From Bryobacterales bacterium (GTDB lineage Bacteria; Acidobacteriota; Terriglobia; Bryobacterales; Bryobacteraceae): DNA of 34,070 nucleotides. The notes beneath the pieces are model-generated. The model was not told the DNA's origin and did no database searches. It saw nothing but the letters and a program-made list of their open reading frames with translations. Of this stretch, positions 8,409 through 34,070 are shown piece after piece; positions within the stretch are counted from its first letter, which is position 1, and each line of letters begins with the position of its first letter. The stretch is from NCBI GenBank assembly GCA_016789785.1, contig JAEUQE010000077.1:1-34070 (forward strand), given 5' to 3'. Made by a program: the position numbers and the translations under genes.

Positions 8409-8456
8409 GAGATATTCCTCGTACATTTGGGAATGACCAAGAGGGGGTCAATTCGA

Positions 8457-11400
8457 ATGTTGAAAAACCTGACCACGATGTTGGGGTTGCTCGTCCTGCT
8501 GAGCGCCTCGCTGTGCGGACAAATGAACCGCGGCACGATCACCGGTCTGTTGACTGACCCATCCAGCGCAGTTGTGCCCGGCGCTACGGTGGTGGTTCAA
8601 AACGCCGGCACCGGATCCCGCTACGAAACCACAACTACCGAGACCGGCCAATACACGGTGCCCAACCTGCCTGTCGGCGAGTATGAAGTCATCTTCACCT
8701 CGCCGAATTTCAAGAAGCTCGTCAAAACGGGGATCACTCTGGGCGCGACCCAGGTGCTGCGCATTGACGCAACGCTGGAGGTTGGCCAAGTGGCCGAATC
8801 GGTGTCGGTCACGGCGGAGGTGCCGCGCATTCAGTCGGAAACCCGCGAGGTGGGCACCAGCCTCGACAACCAGCAGCTTCGCGACCTTCCCCTTAGCTTC
8901 GCCGGCGCACGATCCCCGGAAATCTTCGCCTACAAGATTGCTCCGGGGGTCGCCGGCGATTTCTGGCAGTCCAGCATCAACGGCTCCATGCGCTTCTCGA
9001 AGGAAGTAATGGTGGACGGCGCTTCGGCCACCACCCAACTCGGCGGCGACTACACCACGGGATTCGTCTCCGTGGAGGCCATCGGCGAATTCAAAGTCGT
9101 CACCTCGGGGATGTCCGCTGAATTTGGCCGGTCCCAGGGCGGACTGTTCAACTTCGTGCTTAAGTCCGGCAGTAACGATCTTCACGGCAGCGCGGTCGGC
9201 ATGCTGCGCAACGAAGCGTTCAACTCGAATGGCTTCGCGAACAACGCGCGGGGTGTGCGCCGGCCGCTCGATCGCCGCCAACTCGGTGGAGGCAGCTTCG
9301 GCGGCCCGGTGTATCTTCCAAAGGTCTACAACGGACGCAATAAGACCTTTTTCTACACCGCCTACGAACGTTACCGGGAGCGCAATCTCGGATTCGGCTC
9401 ACCCAACCGCACCGTTCCCATTCCCGATTTCTATGAAGGTGACTTCAGCCGCCTGCTTGGCCCGTCCACCGGCCAGCGCGACGCCCTCGGCCGCGATGTC
9501 CTGCGCGGCGCCATCTACGACCCCGGCACCTTCCGCCGGCTCGACGGCGGGCGCTGGATCGGCGAAATGTTCCCCGGAAACGTGATTCCTCGCTCGCGAT
9601 TCAGCCAGGTTTCGCAGCGCGTCACCAACATCATGAAGCAGTACTATCAGCCGGTGGTGCGCCAACCCGACGGCCAGTTTGCGCTTATCAACAACGCGCT
9701 GTTTCCGATCGCCAACGCACCAGTCTTCGACAACCACCAGTTCTCACTGAAGATGGACCAGAACATCACGGACAAGCACAAGCTGACCGGATCCTATAGC
9801 TACGCGGTGAAGAACCGCAGTACGCTCGCCGACGCGGGTGGGATCTGGGCGCCGGGCGAGTCCGATGGCGGTCCCTTCTCGGCGGCGCGTTCCCAGCGGC
9901 TCGGAACCACTTACGCGCGCATCGCGCATGACTGGATTGCGACCCCCACGGTGGTCAACAACATCACCGCTTCGTTCAACTGGCTGCACGCGCCGACGCT
10001 GAGCCGCCACGTGGACGTGGATGGCGCAAAGGAGCTCGGCATCCGCAACCTCTCCACCTTCGGGTTCCCCACCATCAACTGGGGCGGTGGGCCGTTCGTC
10101 GGACTTACGAATCTCGGCGACCCCACGCGCGCCATTAATAACTTCATCCAGTGGGGCTTACTGGATACGGTCAGTTGGACGCGCGGCAAGCACTTCATCA
10201 AGTTCGGAATCGATATCCGCACCAATCAGCTCAACAACCGCGCCACGCAGGGCGGAGGATTCAACTTCGCGGCCCGCGGCACGGCGATTCCCGGTGAGGC
10301 TTTCGCGGGCAACCTCACGGGCTACTCCATGGCATCGTTCCTGCTCGGCGTTGTGGATAGCGCGGGTCTGAATGATCCCGTGACGCTCGGCGGCCGCCGC
10401 AAGTACTTCGGAACGTTTATCCAGGACGACTTCAAGGTGACCAGCCGCCTGACTCTGCAACTAGGCCTGCGTTGGGAATTCCAGCCGCCGATGTACGAAG
10501 TGAATGATCAGCTCTCCAGTTGGAGTCCCACGGCGCGCGATCCGCTCTCCGGCCTGTTGGGCGCTTATCAGTTCGCAGGTAAGTGCAACAGTTGTACCGG
10601 CAGGCGCTACTTCGGCACGCGGAGCTTCCGCGATTTCTCTCCACGTCTCGGAGTTGCCTATCGCATGAGCGACAAGACCACCTTGCGCGGCGGTTACGGA
10701 ATCTTCTTCGCCGGCGACCTGTTCAACGGCTTCAATGCTACTCCACTTGGCAAGGCAACCAACGTCCAGGCCGGCGGCACCTTCGCATTGGCGGCCGACC
10801 CGGTCCAACCCTGGTTCGGCATCTTCAATTGGGATAACGGGTTCCCCACCGACCGCTACGTCCCACCGGTTTTCGATCCCTCCTGGGCCCGCGCCAACGG
10901 CCCCGGAATGTTCGACCCCAACTATGGCCGGACGCCCTATGTCCAGGAATGGAACCTCAACGTGCAACGTGAGGTTTGGAACAAAGTGGTGGTCGACCTG
11001 GGTTACATTGGCAATAAGTCAACCGGCCTTTGGAATGGCACGCTGGAACGGTTGAATCAGCTCCCTGCTTCCGTGTTGACGCAATACGGGCGCGCGTTGA
11101 ACAATCCTGTGCGGAACGCCGCTGAAGCCGCGACCAACGGTGTCGCATACCCCTATGCGGGATTCAGCGGCACAGTCGCCGGCGCACTTCGGCCGTTCCC
11201 GCAAATCATCGGCATCGGCACCGTGAATAACTTCGGGGCAACACGTGGATTCGCGAATTACCATAGTTTCCAGATCACTGTAAACCGGCAGTTCGGCAAG
11301 GGCATGTCGATTTACGGTAACTACGTCTGGTCAAAGAACCTGTCGAATACCCGTTCGCTGATGATTGGCGACAATCCGGGTCCACTCGACTACTACAATC

Positions 11401-12011
11401 TCGCGTTGGAGAAGGCTGTGGTCGAGTTCGACCGGCGTCACGTCGGCAAGATCTTCGTCGATTACCAGTTGCCCTTCGGCCGCGGCAAGGCGTTGCTTTC
11501 GAACGCGGGCAAAGTGACGAACCTGTTGGTCAACGGCTGGTCATTCTCGGCGATTCTCAACTATTCCAGTGGGACGCCGCTGGGCTTCGGCGGGTCGTTC
11601 CCGCTCTCGGGCGGCTGGAACGGAGCGACGAATCGTGCCAATATCGTGGCGGGTAACCTCACAGTCCCGTTCGATAAGAGTAAGTTCAATCTGCTTGCCC
11701 CGCTCGACCCGGCGAACACGTTCCTCAACAAGGGCGTGTATTCCGATCCGGCGCCTTTGACTCTCGGAACATCCGCTCCGCGCTACGATCAGGCCCGCGC
11801 CTTCGGGATTCCGAACGAAGACTTCAGCCTGCATAAGAACGTGTTCTTCGGCGAAAAGTACCGGGTACAGTTCCGCGCGGACATGCTGAACGCGTTCAAC
11901 CGGTCGGTGCTCGGGGGGATCCAGACCGGCATCACCAGCCCGCAGTTTGGACAGGTCACGGGCATCGGCGGGACACGGCAGGTGCAACTCGGGCTCCGGC
12001 TCGACTTCTGA
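8457..12011 (+). CDS. TonB-dependent outer-membrane receptor with N-terminal carboxypeptidase-regulatory-like domain
   Basis: 1184 residues. Signal peptide 1-21 (TTMLGLLVLLSASLCG). Residues about 24-110 are a CarboxypepD-regulatory-like Ig fold (GTITGLLTDPSSAVVPGATV, TGQYTVPNLPVGEYEV). A plug domain follows (QLRDLPLSFAG, VMVDGASATTQLGG, FGRSQGGLFNFVLKSGSN), then a long 22-strand-type barrel ending VQLGLRLDF with the terminal Phe of outer-membrane proteins. This is the giant 'Oar-like' receptor type common in Acidobacteria, thought to import large substrates such as oligosaccharides; the substrate here is unknown. The ATG at 8457 is chosen over one 30 bases upstream because of GAGGGGGT at 8441-8448 and an ordinary signal peptide. 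No SusD partner is adjacent. Confidence 0.93.
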   Translation: MLKNLTTMLGLLVLLSASLCGQMNRGTITGLLTDPSSAVVPGATVVVQNAGTGSRYETTTTETGQYTVPNLPVGEYEVIFTSPNFKKLVKTGITLGATQVLRIDATLEVGQVAESVSVTAEVPRIQSETREVGTSLDNQQLRDLPLSFAGARSPEIFAYKIAPGVAGDFWQSSINGSMRFSKEVMVDGASATTQLGGDYTTGFVSVEAIGEFKVVTSGMSAEFGRSQGGLFNFVLKSGSNDLHGSAVGMLRNEAFNSNGFANNARGVRRPLDRRQLGGGSFGGPVYLPKVYNGRNKTFFYTAYERYRERNLGFGSPNRTVPIPDFYEGDFSRLLGPSTGQRDALGRDVLRGAIYDPGTFRRLDGGRWIGEMFPGNVIPRSRFSQVSQRVTNIMKQYYQPVVRQPDGQFALINNALFPIANAPVFDNHQFSLKMDQNITDKHKLTGSYSYAVKNRSTLADAGGIWAPGESDGGPFSAARSQRLGTTYARIAHDWIATPTVVNNITASFNWLHAPTLSRHVDVDGAKELGIRNLSTFGFPTINWGGGPFVGLTNLGDPTRAINNFIQWGLLDTVSWTRGKHFIKFGIDIRTNQLNNRATQGGGFNFAARGTAIPGEAFAGNLTGYSMASFLLGVVDSAGLNDPVTLGGRRKYFGTFIQDDFKVTSRLTLQLGLRWEFQPPMYEVNDQLSSWSPTARDPLSGLLGAYQFAGKCNSCTGRRYFGTRSFRDFSPRLGVAYRMSDKTTLRGGYGIFFAGDLFNGFNATPLGKATNVQAGGTFALAADPVQPWFGIFNWDNGFPTDRYVPPVFDPSWARANGPGMFDPNYGRTPYVQEWNLNVQREVWNKVVVDLGYIGNKSTGLWNGTLERLNQLPASVLTQYGRALNNPVRNAAEAATNGVAYPYAGFSGTVAGALRPFPQIIGIGTVNNFGATRGFANYHSFQITVNRQFGKGMSIYGNYVWSKNLSNTRSLMIGDNPGPLDYYNLALEKAVVEFDRRHVGKIFVDYQLPFGRGKALLSNAGKVTNLLVNGWSFSAILNYSSGTPLGFGGSFPLSGGWNGATNRANIVAGNLTVPFDKSKFNLLAPLDPANTFLNKGVYSDPAPLTLGTSAPRYDQARAFGIPNEDFSLHKNVFFGEKYRVQFRADMLNAFNRSVLGGIQTGITSPQFGQVTGIGGTRQVQLGLRLDF

Positions 12012-12058
12012 TCCCGTCCGATCCCGCGACGCGCCGAAGTGATAGTCTCGAAAGAGAG

Positions 12059-12089
12059 CCGCGGGCCGGGCGTTCGGTCCTGCCCGCGG
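12059..12089 (+). other. GC-rich hairpin between receptor and lyase genes
   Basis: CCGCGGGC (12059-12066) pairs with GCCCGCGG (12082-12089), 8 bp with a 15-base loop. There is no T-run after it. It may attenuate read-through from the receptor gene (stop 12011) into the lyase (start 12107) or stabilise an mRNA end. Confidence 0.35.
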
Positions 12090-12106
12090 GTTACGGAACA
12101 CTATTT

Positions 12107-14650
12107 ATGAAGCTGAGGCTTCTGCTTGGTATCATGCTCGCGGCTGCCGGATACGGTCAGCCGCGCCTTCTTTTTTCGGAAGCGGACAGGGACCGGATCA
12201 ACGCTCTCGCCGCGCAACAATCCTGGGCATCGGCGGCGCGAACCGCGATTCTCCAAACCGCCGACGGCTGGCCCCGCACCTACACCACGCGATTTGGATT
12301 GGACACTCCGGCCATCCCGCCCGAGGGCGGTCAGTGGTGGCATCACTATGTGTGCCCCGTCCACGGTGTCCGGCTCGCCTACAGCCCGCCGAATACACAC
12401 CGCTGTCCGATTGACAGCCGTCAATTTACAGGTTGGCCGTACGACCAGGTGGTTTACTATGAACGTCATGGGATGCTGGGAACCACGGCTCGCGACCTTG
12501 GTCTGGCCTATCAACTTACTGGCCGCATCCAGTACGCCCAGGGCGCCGCGGCGATCCTGAAAGAGTACGCCGCAAAGTACCCCACTTACGCCCTTCACGA
12601 CATCAATAACCGCACTGCCCGCAGTGGCGCACGCATGGGGGCACAGACTCTCGACGAATCCATCTGGCTGATTGCCATCGCGTGGGCATATGACCTGATT
12701 CGCAACTCCGGGGCACTTACCGCCGAAGACCAGCGGACCATCGAGCGCGATCTGATTCGCGCATCCGCCGCCACGGTCCGTGGTAACGACATGAATATCT
12801 CGAACTGGCAATCCTGGCACAACGCCGGAATGGCCGCGGCGGGCTTCACGCTCAATGATGCGGATCTGATCCGCCACGCCATCGACGGTCCCAGCGGTTT
12901 CCGCTTCCAGATGCAGCGTTCCGTGGTGGATGAGGGTTTCTGGTATGAGGGCGCGTGGGGCTACCATTTCTACGCTCTCGATGCACTTACTCAGACCGCC
13001 GAGATGGCCACGCGCAATGGCATCGATCTGTGGACGCAGGAGCCGGTGCTGACGTCACTCTTCCGCACTCCGATGCGGCTGATGTTCCCCGATGGCTCGC
13101 TGCCGATGTTCAATGATACTGGTGCGTTGAATCTCTTCTCGCAGAGTAACTTGTACGAGACTGCTTACCGGCGTGCCCCGGATCCATCGTTTCTGAGTAT
13201 TCTGAACCGCGGCCGGGGCCGTGGCGCGCTGCTGTGGGGCGCCGAGGAATTGCCACCCGTGAGCAATGCTTCGGGCCAGGCGCAGAAGAGCGAAATCTTT
13301 GAGAGTGCCGGATTCGCGGTCCTCCGCACTCCATCCTCCGACCACACCGTCATGATGAAATTCGGGCCTCACGGCGGTGGACACGGCCATTACGACAAAC
13401 TCGGCATCATCAGTTACGCCAACGGTGGGCCAATGGCACACGATCCCGGCACTCAGGCGTACGCCGCTCCAACCCACGCTACCTGGGACAAGACCACCGT
13501 CGCGCATAACACGATGGTGGTCGACGAGCAACAGCAACGCGAAGCGGCGGGTAAGTTACTCTGGTGGCAGGTGGGCGAGGGGTTTAGCGCCGTTTCGGCC
13601 GATGCCGGTCCCGCTTATCCGCAGGCGCGCCTGACCCGGACGCTGGTCAATACCGGCCGCTATCTGCTCGATATCTCAGAGGCAACCGCGACGGACTCCG
13701 CCAGTCACACGTTTGACTGGGTGTACCACAACCCCGGAACGGTAAAGACAGACCTGGCGCTGGCGCCCTGGAACGAGTTCGGAAGGGCCAATGGTTACCA
13801 GCATCTTACGGGCAATCGGGGCGCTACCGTCAACGAGCCATGGAAGCTGACTTTCGATGGGACTCCAACTGCTCCGATCACTTACGGCACCATTTGGGCG
13901 AGCACTGCCGAGGTTCGGGCTAAGTTCGAAATCAGCACGGCGCAGGCGTTCCGCGGCCAGGCTTCGGCCCGCGCGGCGTATGAGTTCTCCGGTGCCGGCT
14001 ACTTACTCCTGACGACACCCTTACTTACCGGCGTCCCCCAGGAGAAGCCCGCCGCTCTGCGCATGCAGGTCTACGGCGACGGGTCGGGACACCGCCTCAC
14101 GCTGCGCCTCCACGATTCGACGGATGAACGGTTCGTTGCGACCGTTGGCGCCGTGAACTGGACTGGCTGGAAGGAAGTAGAGGTGCGCAATCCGGAGTCG
14201 TGGAGCCACTTTGGCGGCAACAACGACGGTGTGTTCGACGGTGCGGTGCGCAACGTGACGGTTGTGATTGACCGTGTCGCCAACGGGCCTGTCACAGGCG
14301 AATGGTTCATCGACGATGTCACACTCGACTTCGAAGGGGAGCCTCTCCTGGTTGCCGATTTCGAGGGTCATGTCCGTCATATGCGTTTGTGGATGCTCGA
14401 CTCTGATGGCGCCACCGTCATCACCGGGAATGGCCTGGGCTACGAACTCACGAAACCCATGCCATATGTCATGGCGCGGCGCAAGGGCGCTTCGGCGCGT
14501 TTCGTCACGTTGCTGGAGCCGTATCGTGACCAGCCGGCGATCCTCGAATTCCGGGAGACCGAACCGGGAGTCTATCTCATCCGCGGCGAGGAATTCACCG
14601 ATCATGTCGTGGTGCGGCCCGGCGGTGTCGATCTGGTCCAGGCACAATGA
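12107..14650 (+). CDS. Secreted heparinase II/III-type polysaccharide lyase (alginate lyase-like)
   Basis: 847 residues. Signal peptide 1-17 (LLLGIMLAAAGYG). Residues about 25-380 form an alpha/alpha toroid with NWQSWHNAG (233-241; Asn and His are the usual catalytic neighbourhood) and EGFWYEGAWGYHFYAL (276-291). The beta-sandwich heparinase II/III part starts near 395, with the metal/substrate motif GGGHGHYDKLG (423-433), DPGTQAY and TTVAHNTMVVD. An additional beta-rich segment (about 610-755, GWKEVEVRN, WFIDDVTLDF) resembles a carbohydrate-binding module. Such enzymes cut uronic-acid-containing polysaccharides by beta-elimination. The upstream TonB receptor suggests the products are imported. 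The exact substrate (alginate, glycosaminoglycan-like, other) cannot be assigned. Confidence 0.85.
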   Translation: MKLRLLLGIMLAAAGYGQPRLLFSEADRDRINALAAQQSWASAARTAILQTADGWPRTYTTRFGLDTPAIPPEGGQWWHHYVCPVHGVRLAYSPPNTHRCPIDSRQFTGWPYDQVVYYERHGMLGTTARDLGLAYQLTGRIQYAQGAAAILKEYAAKYPTYALHDINNRTARSGARMGAQTLDESIWLIAIAWAYDLIRNSGALTAEDQRTIERDLIRASAATVRGNDMNISNWQSWHNAGMAAAGFTLNDADLIRHAIDGPSGFRFQMQRSVVDEGFWYEGAWGYHFYALDALTQTAEMATRNGIDLWTQEPVLTSLFRTPMRLMFPDGSLPMFNDTGALNLFSQSNLYETAYRRAPDPSFLSILNRGRGRGALLWGAEELPPVSNASGQAQKSEIFESAGFAVLRTPSSDHTVMMKFGPHGGGHGHYDKLGIISYANGGPMAHDPGTQAYAAPTHATWDKTTVAHNTMVVDEQQQREAAGKLLWWQVGEGFSAVSADAGPAYPQARLTRTLVNTGRYLLDISEATATDSASHTFDWVYHNPGTVKTDLALAPWNEFGRANGYQHLTGNRGATVNEPWKLTFDGTPTAPITYGTIWASTAEVRAKFEISTAQAFRGQASARAAYEFSGAGYLLLTTPLLTGVPQEKPAALRMQVYGDGSGHRLTLRLHDSTDERFVATVGAVNWTGWKEVEVRNPESWSHFGGNNDGVFDGAVRNVTVVIDRVANGPVTGEWFIDDVTLDFEGEPLLVADFEGHVRHMRLWMLDSDGATVITGNGLGYELTKPMPYVMARRKGASARFVTLLEPYRDQPAILEFRETEPGVYLIRGEEFTDHVVVRPGGVDLVQAQ

Positions 14651-23487: not shown

Positions 23488-23807
23488 CGCACGAATCGGA
23501 CGGGCAGCCTCATACAGATCCTGGAATACTCTCCCGAACCGGTTCATCGGCCGGCCACGCTCGCCCTTGAACTGAGTCCTTCATGATTCGCTCCGGCGCC
23601 AGCGAAACGGCGCGGTCCAATCGCTCCGATCCCCAAAATGCCAGTGAGCCCCCCTCCTCTCAGGCGATCTACCTAGCCATACCGAGACCCACCCAACCCC
23701 CACCGGACGAATCTCCCGCGCCCGCCTAGGTGGATTCACGCGTAGTAAGACCGCCTCCAGAGCCCTACTATGGGACGAGGACCGGAGATCAAGCCGGGAG
23801 ACTACCT
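23488..23807. other. Gene-free spacer of about 320 bases
   Basis: No frame has family motifs or a ribosome binding site until GGGAG at 23796-23800, which serves the next gene. The strand is rich in C-runs (around 23649-23700). I see no hairpin with a T-tract and no repeat that I would defend. An open frame of the next gene extends to GTG 23730, but see that entry. Confidence 0.5.
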
Positions 23808-26800
23808 GTGCGGTGCCTTTATTGCGGCAAAAAACTCGCGCTCTTGAGAAAGCTGACGGACAGTGAATTCTGCTCCGACACGCATCGCCGTCTTTACCAG
23901 CAGGAACAGGAGAAGATGGCCCTGGCGCGGCTTGTGGACGCGCAGCAGAGATTCTCTCGCATCGTCGGCCCTGTCCCCACCACAACCGAGAAAGCGAACG
24001 GGAAACTCAACGGGAAGCCGAAAGTGAATGGCGTGGCGCATGAGCCGCACTTCATCGCTCAGGATGAGGAAATGCGCGGATTCGTTCCGCAGATGCCGGC
24101 CCCACGCACGATGGGCGGGCATCGCGCGATCGCGTTCTTCCCCGAATTGAATGTCAACGATCCTGCGATTCCGCCCTTTGAAGCCGTCTTTTCCGCCGAG
24201 CCCCGCCGGGCTGTGCGCGTCGACCTCACTCTCGGGCCGGTAGCACATGCCCGCCACCTGCTTCCTGTGCCGTTCGAATGGGAGAACGCTGCAAAACCGG
24301 TGATCCCGAGCAGTCTTTTGTCTGTGGCGGGAGAGATCGGCGTCACCTGCGACCAGTTGGCCTCCGAACCTGCCGGAAGGGTGGCTGTGGGATGGATCTT
24401 CGAACCGGTTGCCGTGAGTATCGCGGGAATGCGTGCCGAACCGGCGGAACCTGTTCCGTTCCCGAGCGTATCCGCTGGGGTGCCCCAGCCAGATCTGCGC
24501 TTGTCGGGGTTCGCCCTCGGGATGCGAGTCCCGATGTCCGCGGCCACTCTGCCGTGCGAAGTCAAGCCCTCGGCTCCGAAGCAGGCAGGTGTGGATCCGA
24601 TTCTGGAGGCCGGTCTGCCCCAAGGTTTGGACCAACTGCGCCGGCGGCTGACGGCGGACGCGGCTTGGCAGACTTCGGGTTCGCCCGTTTCCTCGCACCC
24701 AGTGGCGTCCCGTGAAGACGAGTCTCCGGCACTTGAGCCTGTGCAGCCGGTATCCGCGCTGCCGGCCCTGGAAGCTGCGCCGCCCACGGGCGACTCGCAG
24801 CCGATCGCGCCTCGAACGGAAAGTCTGCATATGCCGGCTCCGGAGGCGCCTGCCGCCGGTACTCGCCTTTTCCGGCTGAAGCCGTCCGAGCGTGTTCACC
24901 TCCGCCAGCTTCCGATGCGCAAGCCGAGGCTAAGGGAGATGTTCTTCCCGCTCCCGCGTCTGGGCGGATTGCCCGAAATGGCGGGGCGCGTGTGGCGGGC
25001 TGCCAACCCGCGTCATCGCGATCCCAACCAGGAACTGCCCGCACTTTCCTGGATCGTCAAGACGGTTCACAATCCCCAGCCGGTCGCCAGGCAGACAACC
25101 GCATGGCGCGACTTGCCATTCCAGTGCGCGCTTCTGCCGTCCTTGCCGGCGTATCTTCCCGTGCAGGCTTTCCACGCCAGCTCCGACTGCAGTCTTCATC
25201 AGGCGCACCGCGTGGATATGCTGTTGCCGGTCACCAGTTGTGGCCCTTCCCCCGTGCACCATCCCATGGAACTTCCCCTGGAATGGATGGCCAGCCGCGA
25301 AATCGCTTGTTCGCCGCGAACGCCCGAAAGCGTCGCGCACATGGAGGTTTCGCTGGTTTCTCCGGGCCGCCAACATGCTTTGCAAGCCTCCATGGCTACC
25401 GGACAGTACGCCATGAGGCAAATGGACACGGTGCCCTCCGCTTACGACCTCATGGGTTATCGCATGACCCCTCAAAGTAGAGCAGCCTCGCCATCTTTTG
25501 TCCTGCGTCAAACCAGTGCGCTGGCCACCATCGAAGCAACCAGTGGGTTGCTGGCAAAGGCGCCTCTGATGGTGGAAGATCTCGCACCCTGTGCTTCGGA
25601 CCGCGACCTAGTTCCGATCGTCTGCCCTGTCAGCCATGTGGCGCACGATTTCTACCCCGCGGCGAAGGACCGTATGGTGCCGCTCGGGTACGGTACCAGT
25701 TCGGCTGTGTCGATGGCCGACCTCGGCCCGAGCTACAAGGACTTGAAGTCACTGTGGCCGGAACCGGTCCGGCAGCTTCCCCGTATGCGCACGTCCGTGG
25801 TGGAAGATCCCGCCGTGCGCGAGGCGGTGAAAGCGATGCCCTCCGCGGAGAGGAGTTGGCGTCCGAATGTCACGGCCAAACTGCCTTCGCTTCCCGCCAT
25901 TCAGTTCTCGCGGCTGCCCGATTGGAAGTGGGTGACGTTTGTTGTACCGGCGTTGCTTCTAGTCGCTCTGGTGACCGTGTTCACTCCGGACTCACCGGAG
26001 CAGACCGCCGATCTGAATGAACCTGGTGTAGAACAGGGCTTGGAACCAAGCGCTGATTCGCAACAGGCAGCGGAAAAGAACCTGACAGCTTCGGCCAAAC
26101 GGCCGGGGGCTGGCAAGAAAATGGCGCCGCCCACGGATGCGGCAGTTGACCCTGCGCCCGTTGCCTCCTCTGACCCGGCAGCCATCGAAACCGCACCTGC
26201 GCCGGTTGCCGAAGTGCTCGCAGCGCCCGTCGAAGGCGGAGCACCCAAGAAGGCCAATTTCCTAACCGCCAGCCTGAACAGTTTCCGGCAAACGCTGAGG
26301 AAGCGGGCGGCCATCTCCTTCAGTGATGATTTCCGTAGCGGTCTGGCCGAATGGGAAGGCAAGGGGGATTGGTCGAAGCAATGGTCCTATGATGGCGCGG
26401 GTTTCGTGCTCACGGGGCCGCTGGCATTGTATCGTCCGAGCATGAGCCTGTCAGATTACGACATGAATCTCCTCGCTCAGGTCGAAAAGAAGAGTATCGG
26501 GTGGGTGTTCCGGGCCCGTGATCTTGGAAACTACTACGCAACGAAGATCACACTGACCAGGGGCGGACCTCTCCCAGAAGCTGTCGTGGAGCGTTACGTG
26601 GTGATTGATGGCAAGCAGTCCTCTTATGTGCGGCGGCCGCTACCAGTGCAGGCGCGGGTGGATACCGTGTATCCGATCAGTCTCAATGTGAAAGGTAGCG
26701 ACTTCACACTAAGGGTTCAGGGCCAAGTTGTCGATTACTGGAGTGACAGCCGTTTGAAATCGGGAGGCGTGGGCTTGTTTAGCGCGAAAGGCGAGCAGGC

Positions 26801-26906
26801 GCGAGTGCGATGGATCGAGGTTTCGCACCAATACGACACGCTCGGGCGGCTGTGTGCGTTCCTGGCGCCGTACAGCATTACGGGGAGAGAGGGGAGTTCG
26901 AGATGA
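23808..26906 (+). CDS. Very large protein with N-terminal zinc ribbon, membrane segment and C-terminal lectin-like domain; function unknown
   Basis: 1032 residues from GTG 23808, chosen for GGGAG at 23796-23800 and because the protein then begins at its zinc motif; GTG 23730 is possible but lacks a site. Zinc motif: C3-x2-C6-x15-C22-x3-H26 in CLYCGKKLALLRKLTD and EFCSDTHRR. Residues about 60-700 are low-complexity, rich in Pro and Met, with no known domain. One membrane segment at about 707-727 (WVTFVVPALLLVALVTVF), then a disordered Ala/Pro-rich linker. The last 190 residues (SFSDDFRSGLAEWEGKGDW, YYATKITLTRGGP, LNVKGSDFTLRVQGQVVDYW) resemble concanavalin-A-like/DUF1080-type jelly rolls. Its end overlaps the TPR gene by four bases. 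The zinc part would be cytoplasmic and the lectin-like part outside. Confidence 0.72.
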   Translation: MRCLYCGKKLALLRKLTDSEFCSDTHRRLYQQEQEKMALARLVDAQQRFSRIVGPVPTTTEKANGKLNGKPKVNGVAHEPHFIAQDEEMRGFVPQMPAPRTMGGHRAIAFFPELNVNDPAIPPFEAVFSAEPRRAVRVDLTLGPVAHARHLLPVPFEWENAAKPVIPSSLLSVAGEIGVTCDQLASEPAGRVAVGWIFEPVAVSIAGMRAEPAEPVPFPSVSAGVPQPDLRLSGFALGMRVPMSAATLPCEVKPSAPKQAGVDPILEAGLPQGLDQLRRRLTADAAWQTSGSPVSSHPVASREDESPALEPVQPVSALPALEAAPPTGDSQPIAPRTESLHMPAPEAPAAGTRLFRLKPSERVHLRQLPMRKPRLREMFFPLPRLGGLPEMAGRVWRAANPRHRDPNQELPALSWIVKTVHNPQPVARQTTAWRDLPFQCALLPSLPAYLPVQAFHASSDCSLHQAHRVDMLLPVTSCGPSPVHHPMELPLEWMASREIACSPRTPESVAHMEVSLVSPGRQHALQASMATGQYAMRQMDTVPSAYDLMGYRMTPQSRAASPSFVLRQTSALATIEATSGLLAKAPLMVEDLAPCASDRDLVPIVCPVSHVAHDFYPAAKDRMVPLGYGTSSAVSMADLGPSYKDLKSLWPEPVRQLPRMRTSVVEDPAVREAVKAMPSAERSWRPNVTAKLPSLPAIQFSRLPDWKWVTFVVPALLLVALVTVFTPDSPEQTADLNEPGVEQGLEPSADSQQAAEKNLTASAKRPGAGKKMAPPTDAAVDPAPVASSDPAAIETAPAPVAEVLAAPVEGGAPKKANFLTASLNSFRQTLRKRAAISFSDDFRSGLAEWEGKGDWSKQWSYDGAGFVLTGPLALYRPSMSLSDYDMNLLAQVEKKSIGWVFRARDLGNYYATKITLTRGGPLPEAVVERYVVIDGKQSSYVRRPLPVQARVDTVYPISLNVKGSDFTLRVQGQVVDYWSDSRLKSGGVGLFSAKGEQARVRWIEVSHQYDTLGRLCAFLAPYSITGREGSSR

Positions 26907-28546
26907 GTCAAAAGAAGCGCGGAGAAAAGGATATGTCGAGACAGGGTTCGGCCTTTCCGGAGTCCGGAGACTTAGCAGCCACTTACGCGCGGGCTCTCGC
27001 GAAAGCCGTCTCATTGCACCTGGAAGGGAAAGCCAAAGAGGCGCTCAAGGAATTGGACAACGCCGTCAACAACGGCGCGGATTCGCCCGAGGTCCACTCG
27101 GCGCGCGGTCATCTGCAGTACGAACTGGAACTCTACGACGAAGCCGTACAGAGCTATTCGCGCCTGCTTGCGCTCGATCCGCGGCACCAGAACGGCAACT
27201 TCAACCTCGCGGTCTGCCTGGAGAAGCTCGGCCGCTGGGAACATGCTTCGCAGCAGTTTGAAAAAGCTCTCGAAGGGGATCCGCAGCGTCTGGAAGCGTG
27301 GCTCGGCCTAGGCATCTGCCGTCTGCACTGCGAAAAAGCCGAACAGGCGTTGGATGCTTTCGAACGCTGCCTGTCACGCGACGCCGAGCACGAAACGGCG
27401 CGCTTCGGCAAGGCAGTTGCCCTGCAGTATCTGTGGCGTTTCGACGAAGCCGCGGAACTCTATCGCAGCATCCTTGAAAAGAATCCGAACTCGGAAGAGT
27501 CGTTGGTGAACCTGATCACCATCGGCATGGCTCGCAAGGACGAGAAGATGATTCGCGAGCACTCCGAGCGCCTGCTGCAGATCCGCCCGTTCTCGCAAGC
27601 CGCTCTGGAAGGGCTCGCCACGTGCGCCTTCTCCGGCAACGACTTTGAAGCCGCGGCGCGCTGCTGCCAGAAACTCGTCGAGTTCACCCCGAATCACTTT
27701 GAGCGCTGGTTCAACCTGGGCGTCGCCTATCAGAAGACGAACCGGCTCGATCAGGCAGCGCAGGCTTACTCCGAAGCCGTGCGCGTTCGCCCCGACGCCA
27801 AGCAGGCCCACGTCAATCTCGGCATTGTGCGCCAGGAACTCGGCGATCTGAAGGGCGCCCGCGAAGCCTATGAGCGCGCACTGCAGCTTGCGCCCGACAT
27901 CCCCGAGATTCTCTACAACCTCGGGTCGGTTCTGGAACAGCAAGGGCAGAAGGACGATGCGGAGAAGCTCTATACCCGCCTGCTGGTGAAGAACCCCGAT
28001 TGGGAAGATGCGTGGTTCCGCCTCGGCTATTTGCGCATCACGCGCGGTGATTATCACGGCGGCACCGAGGCTTTCGAGGCCTGTCTGCGCAAGAAGACCA
28101 GTTGGCCGGAAGCGCAGGTCAATCTCGGCCTTTCCTATTGGAAGATCGGCGACCGTGATTCCGCTCGCCGCGCCTATGAATCGGCTGTCGACACGCAGCC
28201 GGCATCGGTTGACGCATTGCGCGGACTCGCCGCACTGGCGATTGAACGCGATGACTACGACCAGGCGCTCGAATTCCAGGCCCGCCTCATCGACCTCGGC
28301 GAACGCAGCCCCGAACTGTTTTACAACACGGGTCTGCTCCTCCAGAAGTCAGGCCAGCTTGAGGACGCGATTCGCTTGTACAAAGAAGCTCTGGCCGAGC
28401 GCCCGAACTTCGCCGAAGCGTTGCTCAATCTGGGGCATGCTTTGAAGTCCAAGGGTCAACAGGACGAAGCTCGCACCTACTGGAAGCAGGCGCTCGACGC
28501 GAAACCCGAACTCGCTCAGGGCTACTTCGAGCCGGCGCACACCTAA
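26903..28546 (+). CDS. TPR-repeat protein
   Basis: 547 residues. Begins MSQKKRGEKDMSRQ; from about residue 25 to 540 it is a run of some 14-15 tetratricopeptide repeats of 34 residues, e.g. FNLGVAYQKTNRLDQAAQAYSEAV and LNLGHALKSKGQQDEARTYWKQAL, with canonical W/L-x2-L-G-x3-A/Y and Pro-32-type positions. No signal peptide or catalytic domain, so a cytoplasmic scaffold is likely. The ATG at 26903 is chosen: GGGGAG is upstream and it overlaps the previous stop (ATGA). Translational coupling suggests it works with the zinc-ribbon membrane protein, perhaps by binding its cytoplasmic region. TPR proteins with this many repeats are also found in glycan-related or O-GlcNAc-transferase-like proteins, but no transferase domain is present. 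Confidence 0.85.
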   Translation: MSQKKRGEKDMSRQGSAFPESGDLAATYARALAKAVSLHLEGKAKEALKELDNAVNNGADSPEVHSARGHLQYELELYDEAVQSYSRLLALDPRHQNGNFNLAVCLEKLGRWEHASQQFEKALEGDPQRLEAWLGLGICRLHCEKAEQALDAFERCLSRDAEHETARFGKAVALQYLWRFDEAAELYRSILEKNPNSEESLVNLITIGMARKDEKMIREHSERLLQIRPFSQAALEGLATCAFSGNDFEAAARCCQKLVEFTPNHFERWFNLGVAYQKTNRLDQAAQAYSEAVRVRPDAKQAHVNLGIVRQELGDLKGAREAYERALQLAPDIPEILYNLGSVLEQQGQKDDAEKLYTRLLVKNPDWEDAWFRLGYLRITRGDYHGGTEAFEACLRKKTSWPEAQVNLGLSYWKIGDRDSARRAYESAVDTQPASVDALRGLAALAIERDDYDQALEFQARLIDLGERSPELFYNTGLLLQKSGQLEDAIRLYKEALAERPNFAEALLNLGHALKSKGQQDEARTYWKQALDAKPELAQGYFEPAHT

Positions 28547-28777: not shown

Positions 28778-29488
28778 ATGCATCGTGAATATGTAAAGTG
28801 GTTCAGCCCCACGTTGAACCGTGACATGGAACTTCTGATCCATGGCCACGGCGGCATGCCGTATCTCGTCTTCCCCACATCCATGGGCAAGTTTTACGAA
28901 TTCGAAGACCGCGGCATGGTGCGCGCAGTAGCCGGGAAAGTCGCCGCGGGTCACGTCCAGTTCTTCTGCATCGACAGTGTCGACAGTGAAAGCTGGTACA
29001 ACAAGGGCGCGCATCCCGGCTACCGCATCTGGCGGCACATTGAATACGAGAACTACATTCTGAACGAAGTGCTTCCGATGATTCGCCATCGCAACTGGGC
29101 TCCGCGCATCGGTGTCACCGGCGCGAGTTTCGGCGCATATCACTGCGCGAACTTCGCCTTCCGGCATCCCGATCTGGTCAGCGACTGTGTGGCGATGTCA
29201 GGCGCCTACGATATCCGGCAGTTCCTTCACGGCTACAGCGATCAGAACGTCTACTTCAACTGCCCAACCGACTTTCTGCCGAACCTCACCGATCACGAAA
29301 CGCTCACCCGGCTGCGAGCGATGCGCATCATCCTCGGCACCAGCGATTGGGACATCTGTCTGGGTGACACACAGCGCCTGTCGGGCATCCTCAACAGCAA
29401 GGGTGTGCCGCACTGGCTCGACATCTGGGGAGGGGGCCGTTTGCACGATTGGCCGCTGTGGCAGGAGATGACACAGAAATACTACTAA
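28778..29488 (+). CDS. Alpha/beta-hydrolase-fold esterase (COG4947-like)
   Basis: 236 residues from ATG 28778 (MHREYVKWFSPTLNR). The TTG at 28757 is possible but adds only seven residues. Visible: GHGGMPYLVFPTSMG (oxyanion side), the nucleophile elbow GASFG with S117, ILGTSDWD (acid D190 or D192), and GRLHDWPLW with H223 as catalytic His. These fit putative esterases related to esterase D and Fes. No signal peptide, so cytoplasmic. First gene of an operon with amide ligases (gap 63 bases to the ATP-grasp). A role in releasing or transferring an acyl/amide product of those ligases is inferred from context only. Confidence 0.82.
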   Translation: MHREYVKWFSPTLNRDMELLIHGHGGMPYLVFPTSMGKFYEFEDRGMVRAVAGKVAAGHVQFFCIDSVDSESWYNKGAHPGYRIWRHIEYENYILNEVLPMIRHRNWAPRIGVTGASFGAYHCANFAFRHPDLVSDCVAMSGAYDIRQFLHGYSDQNVYFNCPTDFLPNLTDHETLTRLRAMRIILGTSDWDICLGDTQRLSGILNSKGVPHWLDIWGGGRLHDWPLWQEMTQKYY

Positions 29489-29551
29489 CGTGAAAAGCGT
29501 CTGGCGCTGGCGAGGCAATCCCTCCGCGGCGTCCGGCGGCAAAGGAGATTC

Positions 29552-30484
29552 ATGCGAAAGATCGGAATCCTGTTCGGGATGGAAGACACATTCCCCTGGG
29601 CACTTATTGACCGCATCAACCAGATGGCGGTTGAGGACGTAAGGGCGGAGGTTGCCCGCTTCGACGCATTCAAGATGGCGGTGCCTACAGGCTACCGCGT
29701 CATCATCGACCGCATTTCGCAGGACGTCGAGTTCTACCGGGCGGCTCTCAAGAACGCTGTGCTCGGAGGCACTATCGTCATCAACAATCCGTTCTGGTGG
29801 ACGGCTGACGACAAGTTCTTCAACTACGCCGTGATGTCGAAAACAGGCGTGGCGATTCCGAAAACTGTCGTTCTGCCGCAGTTTAAGAATCCCACCGGCA
29901 CCACCGCCAAGTCGTTCCGCAATCTGAACTACCCTCTCAACTGGGACGAAGTGTTTTCTTACGTAGGTTTCCCCTCGTTTCTGAAACCCTATAGCGGAGG
30001 CGGCTGGAAGAGCGTCTACAAGGTCACGTCGCCCGACGAGTTCTTCAAGGCCTATCACGACACCGAGTCACTGTGCATGACGCTACAGGAAGGCATCGAG
30101 TTTGATGACTACTTCCGCTGCTATGTGATCAATCGCAAGAAGGTTCACATCATGCGGTACGATCCGCGCCAGCCGCATCAGGACCGCTACGTGAAGAATC
30201 CTCCTCCCATCGCGCCCGACATGCATCAGCGCGTCGTCAACGATTGCCTGACCATCTGCCGCACGCTCGGCTACGATCTCAATACCGTGGAGTTCGCGGT
30301 GCGGGATGGCGTCCCGTATGCGATCGACTTTCTGAATCCGGCGCCTGATGCCGACCTCTATTCGGTTGGCGAAGAGAACTTTGAGTGGATCGTGCAGGCG
30401 GTCGCGGAGATGGCGATTGAACGTGCGCTGAGTGACGAGAATCCCGGCCAGGATCTGCGCTGGCAGGCATTCCTCAACGCCTGA
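29552..30484 (+). CDS. ATP-grasp family carboxylate-amine/thiol ligase
   Basis: 310 residues. N-terminal Rossmann-like domain (IGILFGMEDTFPWALID); the ATP-grasp fold begins near 90. Key residues: K145 in PSFLKPYSGGGWKSVYKV (nucleotide-binding lysine and glycine loop), E180 in LQEGIEFDDYFRCYVI (adenine-binding hinge), and D259/N262 in AIDFLNPAPDADLY (Mg2+ site). Such enzymes join a carboxylate to an amine or thiol using an acylphosphate. Ribosome binding site AAGGAG precedes the ATG closely. The gene next to it codes a GCS2-type ligase. Substrate unknown. Confidence 0.88.
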   Translation: MRKIGILFGMEDTFPWALIDRINQMAVEDVRAEVARFDAFKMAVPTGYRVIIDRISQDVEFYRAALKNAVLGGTIVINNPFWWTADDKFFNYAVMSKTGVAIPKTVVLPQFKNPTGTTAKSFRNLNYPLNWDEVFSYVGFPSFLKPYSGGGWKSVYKVTSPDEFFKAYHDTESLCMTLQEGIEFDDYFRCYVINRKKVHIMRYDPRQPHQDRYVKNPPPIAPDMHQRVVNDCLTICRTLGYDLNTVEFAVRDGVPYAIDFLNPAPDADLYSVGEENFEWIVQAVAEMAIERALSDENPGQDLRWQAFLNA

Positions 30485-30582
30485 AGGCCCTGTTCGCCTG
30501 CGATCGCGCTTGTGACTTTGGAGACTCCGCGGCCTTGGAGTGCGCTGCTCCGCCGCGGGATAAACTTGAACAGGGAGGACCC

Positions 30583-31722
30583 GTGCGTCCCAGTTTCACG
30601 CTTGGCATCGAAGAAGAGTATCAGACCATTGACCCGGAAACCCGCGACCTGCGTTCGCATATCGAAACTGAGTTGTTGAACCAGGGCAAGCGCGTTCTCA
30701 AGGAGCGCGTGAAGGCGGAACTGCATCAGTCCGTGGTCGAGGTGGGCACGGGCATCTGCAAGAATATTCAGGAAGCGCGCGCGGACCTGCACGAACTTCG
30801 CAGCAGCATCATCGATCTCGGCCGGCGCAACGATCTGCGGATCGCCGCCGCCAGCACGCATCCCTTCGCCGATTGGAAGACGCAGGAGATCTACCCCGAC
30901 CCGCGCTATCACACCATCGTCGAAGATATGCAGCAGGTGGCGCGCGCAAACCTGATCTTCGGTCTGCACGTACACGTCGGCATCGAAGACAAAGAAACCG
31001 TGATTCACATCATGAACGCGGCGCGTTACTTTGTCCCGCACATTCTCGCGCTCAGCACGAACTCGCCGTTCTGGCTTGGTCTGGACACGGGTCTGAAGAG
31101 CTATCGCTGCAAGGTCTTCGACAAGTTCCCGCGCACGAACCTTCCCGATTACTTCAGCAGTTACTCCGAATACGAGAACATGGTAAAGCTGCTGATCCAG
31201 ACCAACTGCATCGACAATGCAAAGAAGATCTGGTGGGATCTGCGGCCGCATCCCACCTTCTCCACGCTTGAGTTTCGCGTGATGGATCTTCCCATGCGTC
31301 TGGATGAAACGATCGCCATTGCGGCGTTGATCCAGGCCACGGTGGCGAAGTTGTACAAGCTCTACGAAGCCAATCAGGGTTTTCGCCTGTATCGCCGCAT
31401 GCTCATCATGGAGAACAAATGGCGGGCGGCGCGCTACGGCAAGGACGGCAAACTGATCGACTTCGGGAAACGAATTGAAGTCCCCTTCCAGAGCCTAATG
31501 GATGAGTATCTGGATCTGGTGGACGACGTTTTGGATGATCTCGGCTCCCGCGAGGAGATCAACTACATTCGAACGATTCTGGAACGCGGTACTGGTGCCG
31601 ACCGGCAACTCCGCGTGTTCCGTGAGACCGGCGACCTGCGAAAGGTTGTCGATTACATCATTGAAGAAACTGAGGCGGGCCTGGCTTCATCTACCGGATT
31701 GGGAGCCGCCGCAGTGGGCTAG
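30583..31722 (+). CDS. GCS2/YbdK-type carboxylate-amine ligase
   Basis: 379 residues. GLGIEEEY-type N-terminus (TLGIEEEYQ, 6-14) matches the glutamate-cysteine-ligase 2 family, whose first acidic residues bind Mg-ATP. Further motifs: AELHQSVVEVGTGICKN, FGLHVHVGI (metal/nucleotide His), STNSPFWLGLDTGLKSYR, and IWWDLRPHPTFSTLEFRVMD (active-site loop). YbdK proteins form an amide bond with glutamate or another amino acid; the true reaction is often unknown. The GTG at 30583 is chosen for AGGGAGG at 30572-30578; the longer ORF start is not supported. Two bases separate it from the peptidase gene. Confidence 0.9.
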   Translation: MRPSFTLGIEEEYQTIDPETRDLRSHIETELLNQGKRVLKERVKAELHQSVVEVGTGICKNIQEARADLHELRSSIIDLGRRNDLRIAAASTHPFADWKTQEIYPDPRYHTIVEDMQQVARANLIFGLHVHVGIEDKETVIHIMNAARYFVPHILALSTNSPFWLGLDTGLKSYRCKVFDKFPRTNLPDYFSSYSEYENMVKLLIQTNCIDNAKKIWWDLRPHPTFSTLEFRVMDLPMRLDETIAIAALIQATVAKLYKLYEANQGFRLYRRMLIMENKWRAARYGKDGKLIDFGKRIEVPFQSLMDEYLDLVDDVLDDLGSREEINYIRTILERGTGADRQLRVFRETGDLRKVVDYIIEETEAGLASSTGLGAAAVG

Positions 31723-31724
31723 AC

Positions 31725-32753
31725 ATGAACAAAGAAATTCTACGCAACACCCCTTTTGATCCCGAACTTTCCATTGGTGCGAGGAACGCAGTGCGTACCT
31801 GCCTCGGAATCCAGCCCGATGAGAAGACAACGCTGATCGCCGATCACACTTGCATTGAGATCGCGGCGAGCCTCACCGTTGAGCTGGACGCGATTGGAGC
31901 GAACTACCAGGCGTTCATCCTGGAAGAGTTCGCGCCGCGGCCACTGGCTGACATGCCGGCGCAAATTCTGGCGGATCTGGAGACCAGTACCGCGTCCATC
32001 TATGCCGTCTACGCGCAGCGAAACGAGTTGAAGACCCGCATGCAGATGATGTCGGTGATCAACCGCCGCCACATTCGTCATGGGCACATGGTCAACATCG
32101 ACAAGCAGATCATGCTCGAAGGAATGCGTGCGGACTTCATCAAAGTGGATGAGATCTCCATCAAAGTGCGCGAAATTGCGCGTCACTCGAAGTACATCCG
32201 CGCGAAGACGCCCGCGGGCACCGATATCGAAGCCCGCATCTCGCCGCACTACAACTGGCTCAAGACCAGCGGCCTGATCACGCCGGCCAAATGGGGCAAT
32301 CTTCCTGGCGGCGAAGTCTTCACGACGCCCGAGGAAGTCAACGGCACGTTCGTCATTGATGGCGTTGTCGGCGATTACCTCTGCGCGAAATACGGTGATC
32401 TGCGCGATACGCCGCTCAGTGTTCATATCAAGAGTAACCGCCTCACGGGCGCGGAGTGCGCAAACGCCGAACTGCGCGACGCGTTCTGGGCCTACACGCA
32501 CACCGATGAGAACAGCGATCGCGTGGGCGAATTTGCGATTGGTACGAACATCGCGATCCGCGACGTCATCGGCAATATCCTGCAGGACGAAAAGATCCCT
32601 GGCGTGCACATCGCGTTCGGCAATCCGTATGGTGAGCACACCGGCGCCAAGTGGCACTCGTCGACACACATTGATGTGGTTGGACGCAAGTTCGACATTT
32701 GGGCGGACGACCGTCAGATCATGCGTGCGGGCCAGTTCACACTCGAGCAATGA
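31725..32753 (+). CDS. M29-like aminopeptidase (AmpS/T family), short form
   Basis: 342 residues, compared with about 410 for typical M29 aminopeptidases; the N-terminal domain is shortened. The metal-site pattern is kept: E197 in NLPGGEVFTTP, E269 in VGEFAIGTN, H295 and Y302 in HIAFGNPYGEHTGAKW, and H311/H315/D317 in WHSSTHIDVVG. This predicts a two-metal exopeptidase releasing N-terminal residues. Its end overlaps the ATG of the second ATP-grasp gene (ATGA at 32750). In this operon it may trim or mature a peptide-like product, or recycle it; that is inference. No signal peptide. Confidence 0.85.
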   Translation: MNKEILRNTPFDPELSIGARNAVRTCLGIQPDEKTTLIADHTCIEIAASLTVELDAIGANYQAFILEEFAPRPLADMPAQILADLETSTASIYAVYAQRNELKTRMQMMSVINRRHIRHGHMVNIDKQIMLEGMRADFIKVDEISIKVREIARHSKYIRAKTPAGTDIEARISPHYNWLKTSGLITPAKWGNLPGGEVFTTPEEVNGTFVIDGVVGDYLCAKYGDLRDTPLSVHIKSNRLTGAECANAELRDAFWAYTHTDENSDRVGEFAIGTNIAIRDVIGNILQDEKIPGVHIAFGNPYGEHTGAKWHSSTHIDVVGRKFDIWADDRQIMRAGQFTLEQ

Positions 32754-33943
32754 TCTCCAGGTTGCGGCAGCAGTTCAATGAGCGCTTCACGGCGGAGCGG
32801 TACGAGGCGTTTCTGCGCGATGTCGATCGTGAGATGCGAACGCACGTTTCCTACCGGCAGTGCGAGACGCCGTGCTTCTTCACAAAAGAATTGCTGGATC
32901 GTCTGGCGCTCGCGGGCCGGGAGTTGGTGGCGCAACTTCTTGCGAACTCCAGCTACATGCAGGCCTCAACGGCCATCATCCCGGACCGTTTCTGGGTGCC
33001 CAACGAAGCGCCGCAACCAATGTTCGTGCAGGCCGATTTCGGTTTGATCCGCAACGCTTCCGGTGAGTATGAACCGCGTCTGGTGGAGATTCAGGGCTTT
33101 CCATCCCTGTATTGCTATCAGCCGCGGTTCGCGCGCCAGTACATTGAGAGTTACGATCTGCCCCGTTCGCTCCGCTACTTCTACGGCGATCTGAACGAAG
33201 AGAGCTATCGCACCTTGTTATCGCGTGCGATCCTCAGTGGCCATCGGCCTGAAAACGTCGTTCTGCTGGAGATCGATCCTCAGCAACAGAAGACGCTGCC
33301 CGACTTTCACGCCACCGAAGATCTGCTGGGCATTCCATTCGTGTGCATCACGAAGCTTCGCAAGGATGGCAACAAGCTTCTCTACGAACGCGATGGCCGC
33401 TGGATTCCGATCCATCGCATCTACAACCGTGCCATCGTGGACGAGTTGGAGCGCAAGCAGATCAAGCCGCCGTTCGCCTTTCATGATGATCTGGAGGTGG
33501 AATGGGCGGGCCATCCGAATTGGTTCTTCCGTCTGAGCAAGTATTCGATTCCCTACTTCGACCACTACAGCGTGCCGCGCACCATGTTCCTGCACGAAGT
33601 GAGATCACTGCCGGAGGATCTGGAGAATTGGGTATTGAAGCCGTTGTTTTCGTTTGCCGGGCTGGGCGTCTTGGTAGGTCCGACGCGGGAACAGGTAGAG
33701 AGCATTCCCGATGATCAGCGCTCTCAGTACATTCTGCAGGAGCGAGTGCGGTTTGAGTCCATCATCGACACGCCACATGGCGCTACCACGGCGGAGATTC
33801 GCGTGATGTATGTCTGGCTGGATGACATGCTGCCGGTGACCACCATCATTCGCATGGGCCGCGGCAAGATGATGGGTGTGGATCACAACAAGAACATGGA
33901 GTGGGTAGGCGGATCCGCGGGACTCTACCCGGTGGAAGAATGA
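32750..33943 (+). CDS. ATP-grasp-like ligase, second in the cluster
   Basis: 397 residues from ATG 32750, which overlaps the peptidase stop. The order of features recalls the circularly permuted/glutathionylspermidine-synthase-like ATP-grasp proteins: an early LVEIQGFPSLYCYQP, IYNRAIVDELE in the middle, then the nucleotide-binding WVLKPLFSFAGLGVLVGP with K297 and E331 in ILQERVRFE, and finally RVMYVW and TTIIRMGRGKMMGVDHN at the end. Predicted carboxylate-amine ligase; partner unknown. No signal peptide. ATGA overlap with the exported gene that follows makes five or more genes co-translated. Confidence 0.75.
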   Translation: MISRLRQQFNERFTAERYEAFLRDVDREMRTHVSYRQCETPCFFTKELLDRLALAGRELVAQLLANSSYMQASTAIIPDRFWVPNEAPQPMFVQADFGLIRNASGEYEPRLVEIQGFPSLYCYQPRFARQYIESYDLPRSLRYFYGDLNEESYRTLLSRAILSGHRPENVVLLEIDPQQQKTLPDFHATEDLLGIPFVCITKLRKDGNKLLYERDGRWIPIHRIYNRAIVDELERKQIKPPFAFHDDLEVEWAGHPNWFFRLSKYSIPYFDHYSVPRTMFLHEVRSLPEDLENWVLKPLFSFAGLGVLVGPTREQVESIPDDQRSQYILQERVRFESIIDTPHGATTAEIRVMYVWLDDMLPVTTIIRMGRGKMMGVDHNKNMEWVGGSAGLYPVEE

Positions 33944-34070
33944 TCTCGCGCCGTGATTTGAGCAGCGTGCTCACTATCCTCGCGGCATCACCCGCGGTTG
34001 CTCAACAAGCGCAGCAGAGTAGCGAGCCTCCGCGCATCGCGAAGGACACGCTGATTGCGGCGTTGAAGGT
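33940..34070 (+). CDS. Start of an exported protein, cut by the window edge
   Basis: ATG 33940 overlaps the stop of the preceding gene (ATGA). The visible 43 residues begin MISRRDLSSVLTILAASP with AVAQQ next, a signal peptide with twin-arginine features, followed by a linker and IAKDTLIAALKV. The last piece resembles the start of some acidobacterial amidase-signature proteins, but I cannot name the family with confidence. It is the last visible gene of the amide-ligase operon. Confidence 0.6.
   Translation, partial: MISRRDLSSVLTILAASPAVAQQAQQSSEPPRIAKDTLIAALK

Follow-up and report, generated by a model that had tools for sequence, protein, structure and literature searches.

A conserved operon of three predicted amide ligases and two hydrolases in Acidobacteriota, with a possible role in the synthesis of a small peptide-like metabolite

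Organisation of the operon

The 3' end of the window, by which the whole 34,070-nt stretch of DNA analysed is meant, carries an operon of six consecutive genes on the plus strand. Gene A (28778..29488; PF00756) encodes an alpha/beta serine hydrolase of 236 aa and is followed by gene B (29552..30484), encoding a 310-aa ATP-grasp ligase with a RimK/LysX fold, as judged from its structure model. Gene C (30583..31722; GTG start) encodes a GCS2/YbdK-type carboxylate-amine ligase (NF010039 and GCS2 models), gene D (31725..32753; PF02073) an M29-type metallopeptidase of 342 aa, and gene E (32750..33943) a 397-aa circularly permuted ATP-grasp ligase, placed in the glutathione synthetase/YgiC class through its structure model. 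Gene F (33940..34070), of which the 5' part lies before the window end, encodes an exported-looking amidase, so labelled from the resemblance of its N-terminus to genes in two close relatives (L001 and L002). The open reading frame (ORF) list and the sequence bear out the row of genes described in the initial annotation, with gaps of 63 (A/B), 98 (B/C) and 2 bases (C/D), and ATGA overlaps between D and E and between E and F. Shine-Dalgarno-like motifs precede B (AAGGAG; 29542..29547, plus strand) and C (GGGAGG; 30573..30578, plus strand). A promoter and terminator scan gave no signal exceeding shuffled sequences, while neither the Rfam scan at gathering scores nor the tRNA scan returned a match. 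No additional ligase was identified by Pfam scan among nine larger upstream ORFs in the window.

The region just upstream of the operon (23730-28546) holds two large genes, for a protein of 1058 aa that matches no Pfam family and for a TPR protein, which occupy the same place in L001. Elsewhere in the window (8427-14650), a heparinase/alginate-lyase-like protein is encoded after a TonB-type outer-membrane protein that has a regulatory-like domain; these are possibly a polysaccharide-use pair.

Protein families and conserved residues

Residues were considered invariant when conserved in at least 98% of loci, with matches covering less than ~85% of the query excluded and genome G050 counted twice (L094 and L130). 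The catalytic and metal-binding roles given to them in A to E are those we take from familiar motifs. Protein A matches PF00756 (25 bits; cut-off 22), and S117 (within GASFG), D192 and H223, each invariant across 53 loci, are the probable catalytic triad. Protein C matches both the NF010039 carboxylate-amine ligase model (552.5 bits; cut-off 371) and GCS2 (PF04107; 209 bits; cut-off 21), has 1tt4 and YbdK (1r8g) as relatives in the PDB, and retains E26-E27-E28, H145 and H147 (counted from 30535, where the frame starts) in 73 loci. The match of D to PF02073 (M29; 46.5 bits; cut-off 27) covers positions 203-355 of the 406 in the profile. Its residues E269, E289, H295, H315 and D317, invariant in 73 loci, presumably represent the Glu/Glu/His/His/Asp five-ligand metal pattern of M29, as assigned by motif. 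The only PDB sequence match of D is the dioxygenase NicX; kinship with this enzyme is less likely, since E269, E289 and H295 align with Pro, Ala and Asn in NicX. The esterase, GCS2/YbdK and M29-like labels first given to A, C and D are thus upheld by scores above the family cut-offs. A gene follows E in both L001 and L002, as F does in the window; the L001 counterpart is a PF01425 amidase (270.7 bits), the first 43 codons of F resemble the N-terminus of this amidase, and a similar N-terminus occurs in L002. The earlier labelling of the sixth gene as exported agrees with an N-terminus that, by eye, appears to be that of an exported protein, as does the N-terminus of the L001 amidase.

The two ATP-grasp proteins were placed by their folds. 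For B, no Pfam family exceeded its cut-off and the RimK subfamily model TIGR00768 scored 27.4 bits, below its cut-off of 143.4, while the structure model has the RimK family fold, with RimK and LysX/ArgX as nearest structural neighbours. Residues K145, Q179, E247, D259 and N262 of B are invariant across 62 loci. No sequence model passed its cut-off with E, the sole match being to a different ATP-grasp family (PF14397; 18 bits; cut-off 31.4). Fold searching with the structure model assigned E, over its full length, to the circularly permuted ATP-grasp fold of the glutathione synthetase/glutathionylspermidine synthetase (GspS)/YgiC class. Searches of PDB sequences with E, both by single sequence and by profile, gave no match, and hhalign against YgiC alone was equally negative, so that the substrate class of E is drawn from the fold. 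K297, E349, R351, D378 and N380 are among its positions invariant across 94 loci. At the inferred metal site, Q115 apparently replaces the Asn that is usual in the permuted class, and the chemistry of E may thus differ. The database holds no fewer than 7,998 protein clusters related to E. The initial annotation proposed ligases of three kinds, which stands, for B and E through structure models only, but it listed E simply as a second ATP-grasp, and E, being circularly permuted, is not of the type of B; it missed both the permuted class of E and the replacement of E by another ligase described below. Overall, the active sites of A to E are apparently intact, as far as can be told from their sequences.

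Conservation of gene order in Acidobacteriota

A contig search with E found at least 576 relatives, and the best 80 of these, all titled as Acidobacteriota lineages, were retained. The order A-B-C-D-E on one strand was observed in 46/80 loci, including two with one gene split into two matches, and many of the remaining loci are cut by contig ends. Where at least 9 kb was available upstream of E (46 loci), A-B-C-D-E occurs in 35 loci, B-C-D-E in three, C-D-E in five and E alone in three, with at least C-D-E in order in 43/46. In the genomes of the three loci with E alone (L070, L077 and L015), B, C and D sit together elsewhere. The initial annotation had named a lack of conserved synteny as the outcome that would count against it; the order is instead kept in 35/46 loci. 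Distances between any two of these neighbours, taken from match end to match end, vary across loci from overlaps to ~4 kb, and the gene order is thus not due to tight packing alone. All five genes are under purifying selection, with pN/pS per gene of 0.09-0.40 against three relatives (L001-L003), for which synonymous sites are near saturation. The five proteins diverge in a correlated manner (Mantel r 0.81-0.90 in the seven pairs, out of ten, that were tested; 43 loci and the window), as expected if all five descend together.

In many Terriglobia loci (for example L008:11341-19464) E is followed by a block encoding a TPR-containing protein kinase, a PIG-L/NEW3 protein (about 930-970 aa), a permease for amino acids and an MFS protein. 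The kinase, PIG-L and permease clusters occur in 46/80, 40/80 and 32/80 loci, respectively. This block was left out of the system because it is absent after E in seven loci (L001-L003, L025, L032, L070 and L075) and follows E in L015, where A to D lie elsewhere.

Distribution in the wider phylum and a substitute for E

The five proteins were further traced in a sample of 149 genomes of the phylum, using identity thresholds set after the tables had been viewed; genomes with short or distant matches were dropped before co-occurrence was counted. Full-length E was retained in 16/149 genomes (of 18 with matches), B at ≥40% identity in 40/149 (of 47), C at ≥50% in 41/149 (of 47), D at ≥42% in 10/149 (of 37) and A at ≥38% in 37/149 (of 51). 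Seven of the 16 E genomes carry a second E clade, 38-41% identical. Among the seven stretches of this clade, only L090 has B-C-D-E together, with A divergent, as A also is in L092 (B-C-E). One other gene separates C and E in L093 (with B) and L094. Several kb separate E from C-B or B-A in L089/L131 and L091/L132, and E stands alone in L095. Among the 120 matches listed for the L094 protein, in most cases nameless, eight carry a Thermoanaerobaculia name and one an Acidobacteriota name. In four genomes of this clade (L089/L131, L090, L091/L132 and L092) the E relative lies within a much longer open frame of 601-768 aa; no Pfam match was found in 4/4 of these, which may be fusions or chance open frames.

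In genomes without E, B is adjoined by another protein, termed X here (443-455 aa in the eight aligned), which was retained in 21 of the 39 genomes with matches. Two of the three X proteins scanned exceed the cut-off of CP_ATPgrasp_2 and one falls just under it. The profiles of E and X align with a probability of 62% (E-value 8e-5), rising to 86% (5e-6) when more E sequences are included. X is directly beside B in 11/21 X genomes. The order is B-X-C on one strand in 7/21 and A-B-X in G034; in G060 (B-X-C), a piece of A with stops precedes B at the contig end. Thirty-five genomes carry E or X, and B is present in 35/35, C in 30/35 and A in 31/35 of them. E and X occur together in two genomes, and neither is found in 5/40 B genomes. 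Fisher tests gave 4.5e-29 for the association of E/X with B and 4e-5 for the mutual avoidance of E and X among B genomes; these ignore relatedness and serve as description only, as both genomes and loci are related and the p values thus overstate independence. D is found in 8/16 E genomes versus 1/21 X genomes. On these counts, the stable unit comprises B and one permuted ATP-grasp, which C and A usually accompany; D occurs mainly with E. It would seem that two divergent permuted ligases, E and X, fill one slot.

C is present without B in 10/41 C-carrying genomes, and thus also works elsewhere. C-type ligases of 53-55% identity occur without B, E or X above the thresholds in G009, G025, G039, G041, G096, G106, G115, G124, G133 and G142, with G041 encoding a distant B (29% identity). 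A distant B (27%) followed by a distant A (30%) is also found in one genome of the phylum (L127). Plasmid searches with B and with E gave no match for either. Relatives of D were found in 15 plasmid records (≤37% identity), mostly named aminopeptidase, and the one context examined is without ligases. Relatives of A occur in 14 plasmid records. In 3/8 contexts examined (Peptoclostridium, Pararhizobium and Sinorhizobium RAC02) an ATP-grasp gene from a different family lies immediately upstream of the A relative, and none was found beside it in the other five (Thiodictyon and four Rhizobium records). The pairing of A with a ligase is thus recurrent, not universal.

Proposed function and alternatives

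A set of ligases of three folds together with two hydrolases, all apparently intact, points to turnover as well as ligase-driven assembly of a short peptide. The earlier proposal that the operon makes and processes a peptide-like metabolite is in part supported, in that it fits this complement of enzymes. For its other option, a peptide tag, ORFs ≥80 aa in the operon showed no carrier or target gene common to the loci. From it we infer candidate substrates, a product and roles for A and D. The operon may encode a self-contained, NRPS-independent cytoplasmic pathway for the synthesis and turnover of a small peptide-like metabolite, a reading that we consider evenly balanced between right and wrong. 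C would most likely activate the gamma-carboxylate of glutamate for coupling with an amino acid or amine; the class of C supports such an initial gamma-glutamyl bond. B could then attach a further residue via an acyl phosphate, and E, in line with its class, could cap the carboxylate of the peptide, using either an amino acid or an amine (a polyamine, for instance). D may trim or recycle the product from its amino end, while A may hydrolyse the product or an intermediate at an ester or amide bond. That C acts first, followed by B and then E, is a guess. A more specific version is doubtful, if conceivable: the product would be a hitherto undescribed gamma-glutamyl peptide-amine (polyamine) conjugate, a core metabolite in many Acidobacteriota, for which E and X would be interchangeable capping enzymes and whose level dedicated hydrolases would control. 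Against the pathway reading, D accompanies E in only half of the E genomes and the set is often broken up in the second clade; the genomes with C but no B (10/41) and the loci with E but no A to D nearby (3/46) also speak against it.

The enzymes could instead tag a protein or carrier, with B adding glutamate or another residue to a protein or amino-group carrier, C and E extending the tag, and D and A removing it. RimK adds glutamate to S6, and LysX/ArgX act on the amino-group carrier LysW. In favour of this reading, these enzymes are the nearest structural neighbours of B, and the encoding of hydrolases together with ligases would suit it. We nevertheless regard it as unlikely: clustering of ORFs ≥80 aa revealed no shared carrier or target gene in the operon, small ORFs that separate B from C in some loci (in clusters of 7 and 4 loci) either resemble membrane proteins or are of a different type, none of them being shared, and C, being close to YbdK, belongs to a class known for small molecules.

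The membership of C in the GCS2 class and of E in the glutathione synthetase class could also fit a low-molecular-weight thiol analogous to glutathione, with gamma-Glu-Cys formed by C and then extended by E or B with a last residue. This reading is weakened by matches to bshC (bacillithiol) in 22/23 genomes of the phylum examined and by the bacillithiol prediction for Acidobacteria from comparative genomics in the accessible part of PMC6282198, and appears quite improbable. The bshC matches speak for a different main thiol, next to which a second one may exist. The sole genome without a bshC match (G079) carries the full gene set.

In the Puu pathway, gamma-glutamylation is a step in the use of amines and is followed by later hydrolysis. 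A comparable pathway, in which gamma-glutamylation protects or activates amines during their use, would share the ligase and hydrolase logic of the operon and could draw on the amino-acid permease further downstream in many Terriglobia loci. However, no amine oxidase or dehydrogenase is encoded among A to F, three ligases exceed the need of such a pathway, and the permease also follows E in L015 without A to D nearby and may thus reflect ordinary chromosome synteny, so that this role too has little probability. Finally, independent genes acting alone, in an order inherited by inertia, would account for E without A to D nearby (3/46 loci) and for C without B, but are very improbable given that the order persists though spacers change widely, that B accompanies every E or X, and that X takes the place of E beside its partners in genomes that lack E.

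Abundant as they are in soils, Acidobacteriota are poorly understood in chemical terms. To return to the favoured reading of a pathway for a peptide-like metabolite, the five-gene unit, ordered in many Terriglobia and partial in a Thermoanaerobaculia-related clade, points to a metabolite that matters to the cells. The operon could lead to a new small molecule and to a function for the gene E family.

Comparison with known systems

As in glutathione biosynthesis (GCS and glutathione synthetase), ligases of the GCS2 and glutathione synthetase classes are combined here, in one operon, but this operon adds a RimK-like ligase, an M29-type peptidase and an alpha/beta hydrolase. B shares 13-17% identity with RimK and LysX/ArgX, below the RimK subfamily cut-off, and unlike the RimK and LysX/ArgX systems, A to F include no LysW or ribosomal-protein gene. 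The accessible part of PMC12568646 cites YgiC and YjfC as ligases that join peptides to spermidine. E would share its fold class with these E. coli proteins and glutathionylspermidine synthetase, as modelled, at 11-15% identity and with no sequence-level match, and differs from the YgiC/GspS class in its Gln at the inferred metal site. E furthermore adjoins the C/B set, while the neighbours of E. coli ygiC are tolC, ygiB and ygiD. The Anbu operon, as described in the accessible part of PMC6376114, comprises a glutathione synthetase-like ATP-grasp, alpha-E, a transglutaminase-like protein and Anbu. It likewise features a glutathione synthetase-like ATP-grasp in a conserved operon, and X matches CP_ATPgrasp_2, but alpha-E, the transglutaminase-like protein and Anbu are all absent from A to E by Pfam scan. 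The E-64 pathway (Cp1B), in the part of PMC12568646 available, differs in being fungal and in having an ANL-family amide bond synthetase as its second ligase.

Literature searching, with most subscription papers and the catalogue of Iyer et al. 2009 outside its reach, found no paper on this gene combination. That catalogue reportedly lists amidoligase gene clusters, including conserved operons of several amidoligases with peptidases, and the present operon resembles these in combining several amidoligases and peptidases. It is cited in PMC6376114, PMC8939145 and PMC4431377, as seen in their accessible parts. Operons joining several amidoligases with peptidases are thus of an already known kind, while the exchange of the permuted ligases E and X and the assignment of E to the YgiC class are new points.
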